A DNA stretch of 64,000 bases, taken from assembly GCA_943788775.1 (NCBI GenBank), contig CALSRO010000002.1, forward strand, positions 124,001-188,000. The letters are read 5' to 3'. The notes beneath the pieces are model-generated. The model was not told the origin of the DNA, searched no databases, and saw nothing but the letters and a program-made list of their open reading frames with translations. A program made the position numbers and the translations under genes. Positions 11,727 through 18,600 of the stretch are shown piece after piece. The first letter of the stretch is position 1; each line of letters begins with the position of its first letter. The DNA is from an uncultured Flavobacteriales bacterium. GTDB lineage: Bacteria; Bacteroidota; Bacteroidia; Flavobacteriales_G; Salibacteraceae.

Positions 11727-12820
11727 TTGACCAACTTCATTACTTGCTTCGCAATATCTACCGCAGCATTTGTCTTACCATGCTTCACGATGTTTTCACT
11801 CAACCTTGCTTTGAGCGCATCATCATTCATCAATCGCAATACTTCAGGTATCAGTTTGGATTTCACATCACTGTCAGAAACATGGATAGCTGCATCTGTC
11901 TTCACCAATGCCATTGCATTCTTCGTTTGATGGTCTTCTGCGGCAAACGGGAAGGGAACCAGGATGGTCGGTTTTCCCACAATGGATAATTCACTGACTG
12001 CAATAGCCCCAGCGCGACTCACCACAAAATCAGCAGCCGCATAAGCCAAATCCATCTCATATATAAACTCTTGGATGTTTAAGGAAGTATTGGGAAATTG
12101 ATCCTTGATTCGAGCACTTTCTTCTTTGAAAAGCATTCCAGTTTGCCAAAGTACTTGGACATCTGCCTCTAGCAGACTAACCAACTGGTCCGCCATCGCT
12201 CGATTAATGGACCTTGCACCAAGGCTCCCACCTACTATAAGTAGAACCGGCTTATCACCTACAAACCCAAATTTGTCGAGGGCTGCTTCGCGCTTACCTT
12301 CAATTTGAACCATTTCTTTTCTTACAGGATTTCCAGTGACAACTATTCGATCTTTTGGAAAGAATTTTTCCATTCCGTCATACGCCACACAAGCTTTACT
12401 TACGGAACTTGCCACCCAACGATTGGTAATGCCTGCAAATGAATTTTGTTCTTGTATCAATGATGGAACACCCATCCAGGTGGCCATTCTTAGCACTGGA
12501 CCGCTAGCAAAACCACCCACTCCAACGACAACATCTGGTTTGAAGGATTGAATGATCGACCGTGCTTTGAGTAAACTTCCAATCAACTTAAAAGGAAAAG
12601 CCAGGTTTGATGCACTCAATTTCCGCTGAATTCCAGTTATATTCAAACCAATAATATCAAATCCTGCAGCCGGAACTTTTTCCATTTCCATTTTGCCTTG
12701 GGCTCCCACGAATAAAAACTCAGTATCTGGGCGCAACTCCTTAATTGTATTGGCTATTGCAATCGCTGGAAAAATATGGCCTCCAGTACCTCCCCCGCTG
12801 ATTAGTATTTTAAGAGACAT
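11723..12820 (-). CDS. murG: UDP-GlcNAc:lipid I GlcNAc transferase MurG
   Basis: Membrane-associated GT28 glycosyltransferase that turns lipid I into lipid II. The glycine-rich acceptor loop GGGTGGHIFPA lies near the N-terminus, VGVGGFASGP and QEQNSFAGITNR follow, and the UDP-GlcNAc site shows VVSRAGAIAVSEL and PFPFAAEDHQTKNA. I place the start at ATG 12820 (MSLKILISGGG), which gives 365 residues. An upstream in-frame start would add 17 residues that do not look like family sequence. The start overlaps the ftsW end by 11 bases. Confidence 0.97.
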   Translation of the reverse strand: MSLKILISGGGTGGHIFPAIAIANTIKELRPDTEFLFVGAQGKMEMEKVPAAGFDIIGLNITGIQRKLSASNLAFPFKLIGSLLKARSIIQSFKPDVVVGVGGFASGPVLRMATWMGVPSLIQEQNSFAGITNRWVASSVSKACVAYDGMEKFFPKDRIVVTGNPVRKEMVQIEGKREAALDKFGFVGDKPVLLIVGGSLGARSINRAMADQLVSLLEADVQVLWQTGMLFKEESARIKDQFPNTSLNIQEFIYEMDLAYAAADFVVSRAGAIAVSELSIVGKPTILVPFPFAAEDHQTKNAMALVKTDAAIHVSDSDVKSKLIPEVLRLMNDDALKARLSENIVKHGKTNAAVDIAKQVMKLVK

Positions 12821-13994
12821 GGGCCATAGGACGATTTGGTATTCTCTTTTCTTTTGACTCTGACCCTGCACTTACGCTCAGTATAATACCAACAGCCAGG
12901 CAAGTGAACCAAATGGATGTACCACCCATAGAGACCATGGGCAGTGTTTGTCCAGTAACAGGAAATAGGTTTACCGCAACCCCCATGTTTATCATGGCCT
13001 GAAAAACTAAACTAAAACTGATACCGATCGCCAGCAGCGACCCGAATGCCCGAGGACAGGCAGCCGCAATTTTTATGGACCGAAACAGTAAAACCAAGTA
13101 GAGCAACAGCATAAATACCCCGCCCACTATTCCATACTCTTCCAACACGATGGAATAGATGAAATCTGAATACGGGTGTGGCAAAAAGTTTCGTTGAACA
13201 CTCTTTCCTGGCCCTAAACGTGCGATGCCTCCTTTTGCAATTGCAATTTTTGATTGAGTGACCTGATAGCTTTGATTGATGGTGGCATCGGAAGGAGATA
13301 CAAAAGCATCCACCCTGCTGATCCAAGTGTCTAATCGAGGCATGGAACCCGGCAGGGCTTTACCTACTCCATAGACCATTCCTCCTGCGACAACTCCAGC
13401 TGCCAATAACAAACCAATATGTTTAAGGCTCACTCGCCCAATAAACATTAGCATGATGCAATTGACAAAAAGCATAAGGGCCGTGCTCAAATCAGCTCTA
13501 AGGATGAGGCCGCAGATCACAGCAATCGGCAGCAATAACGGTAGGAAGCCTTGCTTGAAATCTTTAATTACATCCTGCTTTAGAGCAATGAATCTGGCCA
13601 CATACATAATGAGCGCCAGCTTGGCTAAATCGGAAGGTTGGAAGGTTTGATTGATGATGGGTATCGTCAACCATCGATCGGCATTATTCAAATTGGTACC
13701 ACCTGTGAACTTAAACAACGTCAATAGCAGCAGCGGCACACTGGCATAAAGCGCAAGCTGAGCGATTTTCGAATAGTACGTGTACTTCACGTTGTGTGCG
13801 AGATACATTAATCCCAACCCACACACTAAAATGAAGCCGTGTCTAAACAAGTAGTACAATGTATTGCCATCGTGATAGCGATTGGCTAATGTTACAATGC
13901 TGCTGTACACCAATAGTAAACTCAGTACTGATAACATCAGCATAATCAACCATATTGCACGGTCGCCTTTTATGTATTTGAGCAATCCTTCCAC
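12810..13994 (-). CDS. ftsW: Peptidoglycan glycosyltransferase FtsW (SEDS family)
   Basis: Polytopic SEDS protein of 394 residues with about ten hydrophobic segments. It polymerises lipid II at the septum together with the class B PBP (ftsI, same operon). Family signatures include DRWLTIP, PSDLAKLALIMYVA, HPYSDFIYSIVLEEYGIVG and the C-terminal NLFPVTGQTLPMVSMGGTS. The start is GTG (GTGGAAGGA) at 13994. It sits directly after the TAA at 13997-13995 that ends the frame-corrected MurD C-domain gene, which supports both this start and that correction. Confidence 0.96.
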   Translation of the reverse strand: MEGLLKYIKGDRAIWLIMLMLSVLSLLLVYSSIVTLANRYHDGNTLYYLFRHGFILVCGLGLMYLAHNVKYTYYSKIAQLALYASVPLLLLTLFKFTGGTNLNNADRWLTIPIINQTFQPSDLAKLALIMYVARFIALKQDVIKDFKQGFLPLLLPIAVICGLILRADLSTALMLFVNCIMLMFIGRVSLKHIGLLLAAGVVAGGMVYGVGKALPGSMPRLDTWISRVDAFVSPSDATINQSYQVTQSKIAIAKGGIARLGPGKSVQRNFLPHPYSDFIYSIVLEEYGIVGGVFMLLLYLVLLFRSIKIAAACPRAFGSLLAIGISFSLVFQAMINMGVAVNLFPVTGQTLPMVSMGGTSIWFTCLAVGIILSVSAGSESKEKRIPNRPMAHVS

Positions 13995-14508
13995 TTATAG
14001 CTGCGCCTCTCTTACGGCTTTTTCTAAACTGTTGTCCTGCTTCCTTATAATGCTTGAAAGTGTCATAATCTGAACAGGCAGGCGAATACAACACCGTATC
14101 TCCCGAATTGGAAACGAGCATTGCGTGCGCTACTGCTTCATTCAAAGTATCGACTGTTCCGATCAATTCAACCCGATTTTCAAAGCATTTCTTTAACTGC
14201 TCTTTTGCAGTGCCAACTATTATTAACGCCTTTAATTTCCGAGTATCTATCTCATCAAATAATTGATAATCATCCTCGTATTGACAAGAGCTTGCAATCC
14301 ATATAATCGGTTCTTCCAAGCAATCCATAGAATACCAAGTTGAGTTAATATCTGTCGCCTTAGCATCATTGATGTATTGAACACCATTGACCCTGTCCAC
14401 AAATTCCAGGCGATGTTCTATGTCAGCCATTCGCTTCAGGTTTTCCTGACGCGCCTTAACTAACTTGTCCTCAAGTGTCTTATGAATGTTTTTAATATTC
14501 GGCTCCAT
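13995..14508 (-). CDS. Free-standing MurD C-terminal-domain paralogue (one 3' frameshift)
   Basis: This reads as a lone Mur ligase C-terminal domain. It aligns by eye to the last third of the adjacent MurD: IEHRLEFVDRVNGVQYINDAKATDINSTWYSM matches IEHRLEHVN...NDSKATNVNSTWYAL, and SPACSDYDTFKHYKEAGQQF matches SPACASFDLFEDYEDRGRQF. It lacks the N-terminal UDP-binding and central ATPase domains. The GGVDKG loop of MurD is replaced by SSCQYED and SPACAS by SPACSD, so it is unlikely to be a ligase alone. The raw frame runs on into ftsW to 13843. Removing one base from the T5 run at 14019-14023 gives ...QFRKAVREAQL and a TAA at 13997-13995, directly before the ftsW start, for 170 residues. ATG at 14508 is 9 bases after murD. 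Function unknown; a divisome or MurD-associated structural role is only a guess. Confidence 0.8.
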
Positions 14509-15876: not shown

Positions 15877-17137
15877 CTATCGCAGTTTAAGTGTGATAAT
15901 GCTTATCACGGCTAGCATGATTCCCACAATCCAAAAGCGTGATACAATCTTGCTTTCGTGAATTCCTTTCTTCTGGAAATGATGATGAAGGGGTGCCATG
16001 AGAAAGATTCTTCGTCCTTCTCCATATTTCTTTTTTGTGTATTTGAAATACCCCACTTGTAGCACTACACTTAGGTTTTCGACTAGAAAAACGCCACAGA
16101 AAATGGGGATGAGTAATTCTTTTTTTATCGCCAAGGCAAACACCGCGATGATGCCGCCAAATAGCTAAACTTCCAGTATCCCCCCATAAAAACTTGGGCC
16201 GGATAAGAGTTATACCAAAGAAACCCGATGCATGCACCAACAAAGGCTCCCATGAAGGATTACCAACTCCTCCGAGTTCGGAATGAACATAATGTTCAAA
16301 AAGTCTGCGAAAAAGATATTCGAACCGAGATATGCGAAAATGGCCAGGGTCAACCCACTAATGGCAGATGTTCCTCCCGCGAGTCCGTCAAGTCCATCGG
16401 TCATATTAGCACCATTGCTAACAGCAGTTACGACCACGATGACCACCCAAAATGGATAACAACCAAGGACCAACCCGCTTGCGGTTTCTCCCGCCCAGTT
16501 TAGCATCCATTTATAATCAAACTCATTGTTCTTTACGAATGGTATAGTCGTTTTAGTTACATCAGACTCTACCCACTGGGTTTCGTCTGAAACGCAGCCT
16601 TCCTCATCTTGGACTTGATAAACAACGGGATCACCAAATTCATCAAATGCTTTGTGTTTTATGCTGATTTTCACTATTGAAAAACAAGATTGATCCAGCG
16701 ATGATTCCAATAACCTACCTGCCCAACGACCTTGAAACTTTCCTGCTAGTCCTTTTTTTATCCTTTTTAAATACTTTGATATAATCATCTGCAAATCCAA
16801 TCGCTCCTAGCCAAACGGTCGAAATCAGCATTAACCAGATATAAGTGTTATGCAGCTTTGCAAATAATAGGAGTTAGGAATCACAATCGCACTGAGTATA
16901 ATCAAACCACCCATAGTCGGAGTTCCTTGCTTTGCCAATTGACCTTCGAGCCCTAAGTCGCGCACCGTTTCACCCACCTGCAACTTCCTCAAATAGTTTA
17001 TGATTCGCCCACCGAACATCATGCTAATGATCAATGATGTGAACACGGCCATAGCTGCTCGGAATGTGATGTATTCGAATACACCCGCGCGCCGGGAAAT
17101 CAAGAGAATGTAGGTATGAGAATAGGTAGTAAAACAT
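15877..17137 (-). CDS. mraY: Phospho-MurNAc-pentapeptide transferase MraY, frameshifted
   Basis: Polytopic enzyme that makes lipid I. Family segments appear in order but in changing frames: [15 protein letters not shown] at the ATG at 17137; [15 protein letters not shown] and [45 protein letters not shown] and [28 protein letters not shown]; and finally [24 protein letters not shown] to [13 protein letters not shown] count about eight single-base insertions and one deletion, near 17092, 16875 (deletion), 16753-16759, 16730, 16714, 16680-16684, 16257, 16180-16185 and 16159, mostly in short homopolymers. Every catalytic segment survives and the gene is essential, so sequence error is far likelier than decay. 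The start overlaps the murE stop (TGATG). Confidence 0.9.
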
Positions 17138-18600
17138 CAGTTAACTAGGTTCAGCATTTCGGTTAGGATCAACATGTCATTGAAATCGGTTCGTTCGCCA
17201 TTCACCTCTTGATAGGTTTCATGGCCCTTTCCTGCAACGAGGATGATGTCACCGCTTTCGGCCAAACTGGCTGCCGCCTTAATGGCCTCTCTTCTATCGG
17301 TGATGCTTAAGGTCTTTTTCAACTGAGTTTTATCTACTCCAGCCTCCATGTCCTTAATGATTTGATTTGGATCTTCCGTTCTTGGATTGTCGCTTGTTTA
17401 AAATGACTCGATCGCTTTTCTTCGTGGCGATGTCGGCCATCACAGGGCGCTTGTCCTTATCTCGATCGCCACCACACCCAATTACCGTGATAACCCGTTC
17501 ATTTCCACCACGGATATCATCGATGGTGTTGAGCACATTTTTCAAGGCATCAGGAGTGTGTGCATAATCCACAATGCCAACAATGCCACTCTCCGTTCTC
17601 ACATATTGAAATCGCCCTGCTGGTGGGTTTAAATTGCTCAACATCGTCAAAACTTCTAGCTTATCCTGTCCAACGTAAAACCGCTGTAGCCGTAGGTAGC
17701 TAGCAAATTGTAAGCGTTGAACTGACCGATCAGTTTCGACCAAATCTCTTTATCATCTATGGTCAAATTCAATCCTTGAAAATGATTTTCAAGAATCTTA
17801 GCTCTGAAGTCAGCATCTCTTTTCAAAGCGAAGCTGTACGCTTTCGACTTCGAATTTTGAACCATTATTTCTGCATGTGAATCGTCCAGGTTTATCAATG
17901 AAAATGCTTGTGTCCCTAATGCATCAAAAAAGCCCTTCTTCGCTTTGATGTAAGCATCAAACGTTTTATGAGAATCCAGATGATCATGTGTGATATTGGT
18001 AAACAGCGCTCCTTTAAACTGAAGTCCAGCAATCCGCTGTTGGTGAACTGCGTGGGAGCTTACCTCCATAAAACAATACTGACAACCCTCTTCTACCATT
18101 TCAGCCAAAAGCGCATTCAGTTGAATTGGATCTGGAGTTGTGTGAGTTGCCTTGACCTCACGATTTCCAATCATATTGACCACGGTAGATAACAGCCCTA
18201 CTTTGTAACCCAAGGCTTTGAAAAGCTGATACTGAAGGGTGACCACCGTTGTTTTCCCGTTGGTTCCTGTCGTACCAATCAATTCCAATTTCTCCGATGG
18301 ATTATCGTAAAAATTAGAAGCGATCATACCTAGCGCAGTCTGTGTGTTTTGAACCTTTACATAGGTAACACCCTCGATTTGTTCATCAGGAAATTCTTCG
18401 CAGATGATGATTTTACAACCCATCTCGACCACCTTTGAGATATATAAATGCCCATCGGTTTGCGTTCCTCTGATGGCAATGAATGCACTCATGCCATCCA
18501 CCAGCCTACTATCTGAACAAATCTTATCCACCGCCAAATGAGTGCTACCAATAACCTCCTCGAGACCCGCCTTATACAATATGTCCTTTAGCAGCTTCAT
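17137..18600 (-). CDS. murE: UDP-MurNAc-tripeptide synthetase MurE, frameshifted
   Basis: Mur ligase adding the third stem-peptide residue. The first 300 residues include the P-loop GTTGTNGKTT and THTTPDPIQLN. The C-domain carries VDYAHTPDALKNVL, VIGCGGDRDKDKRP and VAGKGHETYQ. Three apparent +1 insertions (near 17690, 17674 and 17397-17399) split the frame. Correcting the last restores DNPR (LTSDNPRTEDP), the motif of meso-diaminopimelate-adding MurE. Corrected length is about 486 residues, normal for the family. It overlaps ftsI (ATGA) and mraY (TGATG). Together with mraY it forms a 1.5-kb patch of indels. Confidence 0.92.

Follow-up and report, generated by a model that had tools for sequence, protein, structure and literature searches.

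A conserved and apparently undescribed gene for a free-standing MurD domain 3 between murD and ftsW in Bacteroidia

The locus and the encoded protein

The window (the whole stretch of 64,000 nucleotides that was analysed) carries a small gene, here called gene x, between murD and ftsW (Table 1). Its host genome (G000) comprises 3.11 Mb in 11 contigs, and the closest named loci belong to metagenome-assembled genomes of Flavobacteriales and Salibacteraceae. The earlier note had described a free-standing MurD C-terminal domain at this place, 9 bases downstream of a complete murD. Both statements hold: 9 nt separate the murD stop codon from the ATG of x, and the frame of 164 residues is homologous to domain 3 of MurD only. 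The landmarks IEHRLE, NDAKATD, STWYSM, and SPACSDYDTF listed in that note are found in the protein, the GGVDKG motif is replaced, and the ATPase and UDP domains are missing.

Table 1. Positions in the window of gene x and of the neighbouring cluster genes
Feature	Position	Strand	Remarks
ftsW, GTG start	12810..13994	-	93.7% identical to the frame of G012
gene x (free-standing MurD domain 3)	13995..14508	-	ATG at 14508; 164 homologous residues, 14508-14017
murD, complete three-domain ligase, 451 aa	14518..15873	-	NCBIfam murD 393 bits, cut-off 212
mraY	15877..17103	-	split into several ORFs
murE	17137..18600	-	split into several ORFs

As assembled, the x frame continues to position 13843 (221 aa), and its 3' end is out of frame. 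The neighbouring frame reads KAVREAQL-stop, and this stop codon directly abuts the GTG of ftsW. In the nearest relative, G012 (73% identical), x ends with REAQL-stop-GTG in frame, exactly at ftsW, in agreement with the previous suggestion that the gene, once corrected by one base, ends at the ftsW start. The essential genes murE and mraY are both broken in the window, and the intact murE of G012 aligns to it as three blocks in two frames. Because G012 ends in frame and the murE and mraY of the window are also broken, we take the 3' offset of x to be a likely assembly indel, a judgement made from the assembled sequences; the breaks in murE and mraY are likely assembly indels as well. The N-terminal start of x is less certain: the G012 frame shows no stop codon between x and murD, and a portion of this upstream stretch corresponds to a different frame of the window.

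Sequence searches consistently placed the x protein with the C-terminal part of MurD. The Pfam profile Mur_ligase_C (PF02875) matched over its full length (1–127 of 127) with 30.1 bits, above the gathering cut-off of 28.4 bits, and the scores of the other x members ranged from 18.6 (L036, under the cut-off) to 38.9 bits. In the same Pfam profile search, MurD_N and Mur_ligase_M gave no match, and Mur_ligase_C alone reached its cut-off. The NCBIfam murD model (TIGR01087) matched at positions 294–437 of 441 with an E value of 2.8e-34 and 119 bits, which falls short of the curated whole-protein cut-off of 211.95 bits. A PDB sequence search with E values up to 1 returned 11 sequences, all of them MurD chains, and none of the NCBIfam MurT models matched up to E 1, so that x does not fall within the MurT/lipid II isoglutaminyl synthase group. 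With domains 1 and 2 missing, x is not a MurD ligase as judged from its sequence, and ligase activity is not expected.

The AlphaFold2 model of x, built with 20 x sequences (pLDDT 81.9, pTM 0.75), is predicted to have the Mur ligase domain 3 fold. The 33 best PDB structure matches of the model are MurD chains (TM-score to the query, 0.64–0.72), and the other Mur ligases and MurT rank after MurD. An N-terminal helix (residues 2–31) is modelled at low confidence, with block means of 51–70.

Distribution, gene order, and origin

Matches of the x type were found in 17 genomes at E values from 5e-110 to 1.5e-41, above chance. In the window's genus, x lies beside murD in 11 of the 12 other genomes, and the twelfth (G010) shows neither x nor murD. 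Among the 395 genomes of the class Bacteroidia, 379 had any match and 92 had two or more. The second matches of eight of these 92 were set aside as non-x: G089, G147, G263, G294, G309, and G330 gave a single match with the broader profile, and those of G276 and G367 appear to be a murD divided between contig ends. After the re-search with the broader profile and a scan of the fetched loci, x was counted in 84 of the 395 genomes (the window included), spread over 21 families, one of which is f45 with G335 as its member; G090 and G244 (family f6), with one weak match each, were left out of this count. The families with the most sampled x-bearing genomes were f10 (14), f39 (11), f13 (10), f1 (8), f11 (8), and f29 (7). 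No x was found in the remaining 311 genomes of the class, nor in any of the 119 genomes from other classes of the phylum. Of the latter, 116 had at most one match, and the frames among the matches listed were at least 446 aa long. The other three had two matches, none of which was read as x: the second match of G432 looks like split murD, and those of G482 and G535 lie within 563-aa frames. On a tree of MurD domains 1–2 (141 chosen rows), the presence of x required 16 changes, compared with a mean of 40.2 for shuffled data, and none of 500 shuffles was as low. In many Bacteroidia families, gene x is thus inherited clade-wise as part of the cluster for division and cell-wall synthesis.

The earlier note had raised the question of whether the gene always lies in the order murD-x-ftsW. 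At the loci examined, this order on a single strand is the rule. With start codons picked by script, the median distance is 20 nt between murD and x (50 nt or less in 83 of 89) and 13 nt between x and ftsW (30 nt or less in 58 of 83, more than 100 nt in 15). The order is not invariable. In G082, x and ftsW stand together and the murD frame is on another contig. In G328, x and ftsW likewise stand together, with mraY- and murG-like frames flanking both sides by eye, and a MurD-like frame of 885 aa is on another contig. In G335 (L220, family f45), murD and x were found with no ftsW adjoining, and off-cluster copies of x occur at L033, L174, L179, L185, L187, L195, and L219. At 31 of 31 scanned loci of the class that lack x, ftsW follows murD and no x-like ORF is present. 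Remnants of x were sought by tblastn in 20 of these murD-ftsW gaps, which gave short matches only (best E 0.003), the five best lying on the opposite strand; the other 11 loci were covered by the ORF scan only.

Several minor variations of the locus were also seen. Two free-standing MurD domain 3 genes lie in tandem between murD and ftsW in G362 (L209) and at L104. The second, off-cluster copies of family f6 (L033, L174, L179, and L185) share a neighbourhood in which a MerR-like regulator, a gene resembling that of a sigma factor, and a small gene of lipoprotein type were recognised by eye. An open frame of 827 codons in G217 (family f6; L156:3120-5600, minus strand) contains MraY (Glycos_transf_4) and MurD domains, so that the two genes are fused or a stop codon has been lost. 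In G015 (L042:4581-5307, minus strand), x and ftsW are separated by a pair of short ORFs of 143 aa and 121 aa, an arrangement shared by no other genome as far as seen. In G120 (L268), a small unrelated ORF seems, by eye, to occupy the murD-ftsW gap of about 360 nt in place of x.

The origin of x was approached with two trees. A quick tree placed 68 of 69 x sequences in one clade; tests on it turned up constrained (held) trees of higher likelihood, and its search is therefore regarded as too shallow. In a careful tree of 77 rows, 27 of 33 x sequences form one clade with support of 85/89, and those of f13, G048/G128, and G335 lie outside. The x of the window belongs to a nine-row x clade (96/99) whose rows come from families f1, f26, f33, and f57 as well as from one genome of the Cryomorphaceae. 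The tandem copy of G335 pairs with its own MurD (100/99), a very diverged MurD that it adjoins. Holding all x except that of G335 together gave the best likelihood found, 11.5 log units above the free tree (p 0.68), and holding all x together gave a likelihood 22.5 log units lower (p 0.19). When individual groups were held with their own MurDs, the likelihood was 22.0 log units lower for f6+f11 as one group (p 0.16), 9.6 lower for f29 (p 0.36), 28.2 lower for the window clade (p 0.12), and 0.7 higher for f13 (p 0.49). None of the held topologies of the careful tree was rejected at 0.05, and one old origin of x with at least one later re-invention is our best reading of these trees, not a proof.

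Selection and ligand residues

Gene x is held by purifying selection. Two frames were dropped before the residue and dN/dS tables were made: X_G372, the first frame, which is a piece of murD, and X_G328b, which is MurD-like. This left 143 of 148 pairs, and by Nei-Gojobori counts 52 of these had an x dS below 1.5. In all 52 unsaturated pairs, dN/dS of x lay between 0.010 and 0.364 with a median of 0.10, and the same held for the 20 disjoint pairs among them (20 of 20). For the pair G007/G009 of the window's genus, the values were 0.083 for x, 0.053 for murD, and 0.007 for ftsW. Over the 87 pairs outside family f13, the median dN ratio is 1.36, with x ahead of murD. Within f13, x is slower than murD in all 45 pairs (median dN ratio 0.39, maximum 0.47), and the ratio to domain 3 of MurD itself is 0.41. 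At the f13 loci (L035, L158-L160, L164, and L196-L200), murD and ftsW were seen to be fast-evolving.

These values bear on whether x is a murD duplicate in decay or an artefact of assembly, an explanation that we regard as extremely improbable. The 3' end of the window's x is indeed out of frame, and partial duplication of murD does occur, as the pairing of the G335 copy with its own MurD illustrates. Against this explanation stand the identity of only 38% to the adjacent MurD, on which the earlier note's dismissal of an assembly duplicate is upheld, the purifying selection in every disjoint and every unsaturated pair, and the spread of orthologues over 21 class families; for the family as a whole, the explanation is refuted. 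The earlier view of a maintained gene rather than a decaying fragment is thereby borne out, orthologues in the murD-x-ftsW position being abundant. Of the two outcomes that the note had named as refuting it, a lack of orthologues in related genomes and a dN/dS near 1, neither was observed.

Residues are numbered as in E. coli MurD following the literature (one below the printed alignment positions), and Arg302 and Asp317 are taken here to be nucleotide-side positions of MurD. In the E. coli enzyme, according to the parts of the source drawn on here, the domain 3 residues T321, K348, S415, and F422 make contact with D-Glu, and K319 comes near the gamma-phosphate (PMC4652230); similar contacts of Lys348, Thr321, and Ser415 are described for MurD inhibitors in the excerpt used of PMC3527612. 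The x set comprised 98 rows after G335 and the seven off-cluster copies were dropped. Lys348 is kept in 15 of the 98 and lost in 83, and the other ligand residues are kept to varying extents (Lys319 in 61/98, Arg302 in 64/97, Thr321 in 73/97, Ser415 in 75/97, and Asp317 in 85/98). Core positions are kept better: Pro411 in 97/97, Glu304 in 94/98, Ala393 in 94/98, and Phe429 in 93/96. Most x lineages, including that of the window, have thus lost the D-Glu-binding lysine and kept the fold core. The MurDs themselves keep Lys348 in 103 of 105 rows and Arg302, Asp317, Lys319, Thr321, and Ser415 in all 105, and complementation of a defective MurD by x was rejected on these counts.

The pattern differs among lineages. 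All 12 x rows from the window's genus have Arg302, Asp317, and Lys319, and seven have Thr321; Lys348 is found in none of the 12 and Ser415 in none of the 11 rows reaching that site, all of which have aspartate, so that the x of this genus lacks the D-Glu residues Lys348 and Ser415. The f39 proteins keep Thr321 and Ser415 in 10 of 10 rows, with Arg302 in none, Asp317 in two, Lys319 in one, and Lys348 in one. All six checked ligand residues are kept in 10 of 10 rows of f13, and L078 and L079 retain GGVDKGNDY. The description of the domain as degenerate in the earlier note is therefore apt for the D-Glu residues in the window's genus and does not apply to f13.

Possible roles of the x protein

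Gene x most likely encodes a non-catalytic partner in cell-wall building, as its sequence is selected, its fold core is kept most widely, few members still have the D-Glu lysine, and MurD is intact. Domain 3 of E. coli MurD swings between open and closed states in the part of the structural work cited here (PMC4652230). Our first choice, held tentatively and at less than even confidence, is that x is a catalytically dead copy of this mobile lid that docks in trans on a Mur ligase; it is preferred because x copies the moving lid and the window's genus keeps Arg302, Asp317, and Lys319. The protein would be made next to MurD and would act as a regulatory or assembly subunit; the regulatory or scaffolding role in the divisome that the earlier note suggested is likewise hypothetical. 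The simplest docking site would be domain 2 of MurD, on which its own domain 3 closes; alternatively, x might pair with domain 3 of MurD. In the window's genus, the invariance of the nucleotide-side Arg302, Asp317, and Lys319 and the loss of the D-Glu-side Lys348 and Ser415 would fit a lid that nears the ATP-bound centre and does not deliver the amino acid. Three observations speak against such a lid: f39 loses the very residues on which the idea relies; x stands beside ftsW with murD on another contig in G082 and G328, which implicates FtsW or the operon no less than MurD; and no x was found in 311 of the 395 class genomes, which implies that MurD has no general need of it. A fuller version, which we advance with somewhat more reserve, is that the dead lid, on MurD or another Mur ligase, may control or channel the D-Glu step in trans; it would then be a part of the Bacteroidia division and cell-wall cluster not described so far, one that many lineages lack and that in f13 is more strongly constrained than MurD.

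An adaptor that plays no part in the MurD active site and ties precursor synthesis to FtsW, MurG, or MraY through its N-terminal helix and conserved fold is also possible, though we give it slightly less credence. It comes close behind the lid in trans because x stays with ftsW in the two genomes with murD elsewhere and because MurG has already been put forward as a scaffolding protein to which Mur ligases bind (PMC6420597, as far as the portion cited goes); the short x-to-ftsW gaps and the relaxed ligand site with a kept fold core agree with it as well. Such an adaptor does not explain why Arg302, Asp317, and Lys319 are invariant in the window's genus or why all six ligand residues are so in f13, and its helix is modelled at low confidence. 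Those f13 residues, together with the slower evolution of x than of MurD there and the GGVDKGNDY of L078 and L079, would be accounted for if x were a ligand sensor or a working lid in trans, still binding D-Glu, a nucleotide, or a UDP-precursor. That would suit f13 and the few others with Lys348; given the loss of Lys348 in 83 of 98 rows and the replacement of Ser415 by aspartate in the window's genus, we consider it the least likely of the possible functions. Hardly more likely is a function unrelated to MurD that reuses the fold, for example translation coupling into ftsW or interaction with a partner from outside cell-wall synthesis. The off-cluster copies and the frequent abutment of x on ftsW could be read in its favour; the selection acts on the amino-acid sequence and not on the reading frame alone, and the position in the cluster is the rule, both of which weigh against it.

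Gene x is a real, conserved gene and apparently an undescribed one: no description of such a murD-x-ftsW gene was found in the open-licence literature, as judged from titles and the beginnings of abstracts. The nearest known relative is the MurD ligase, which shares sequence (the E value of 2.8e-34 to the NCBIfam model), fold, and neighbourhood with x, whereas x consists of domain 3 only, without the UDP- or ATP-binding domain, and the D-Glu lysine is gone in most x. For the following proteins, the comparison draws on excerpts of the cited reports. MurT of the MurT/GatD amidotransferase is likewise a Mur-ligase relative serving as a subunit beside another protein (PMC3267633), but its structure (6h5e_D) matches x only with an E value of 4.4e-4, much more weakly than MurD does, and x gave no hit to the MurT models of NCBIfam. 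MurD2 of Xanthomonas is an enzyme resembling a MurD paralogue, with changed residues at the glutamate site; it is a whole ligase that attaches L-Glu (PMC8788868), unlike x, which lacks the ATPase and UDP domains. MigC of Acinetobacter baumannii, which reportedly interacts with MurD and affects cell wall biogenesis (PMC12208494), is a COG0523 zinc protein rather than a Mur domain. MurG, proposed as a membrane platform for precursor enzymes (PMC6420597), is a glycosyltransferase unrelated to x.

The genes murD and ftsW are well-studied neighbours, and a selected protein is kept between them in genomes of 21 families of Bacteroidia. Should x bind MurD, an essential antibiotic target would have a natural regulator that acts in trans and is built from the enzyme's own lid. 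Since isolated domain 3 of E. coli MurD (residues 301–437) gave uniform NMR resonances in the portion of PMC4652230 used here, x should be directly testable as a purified protein.
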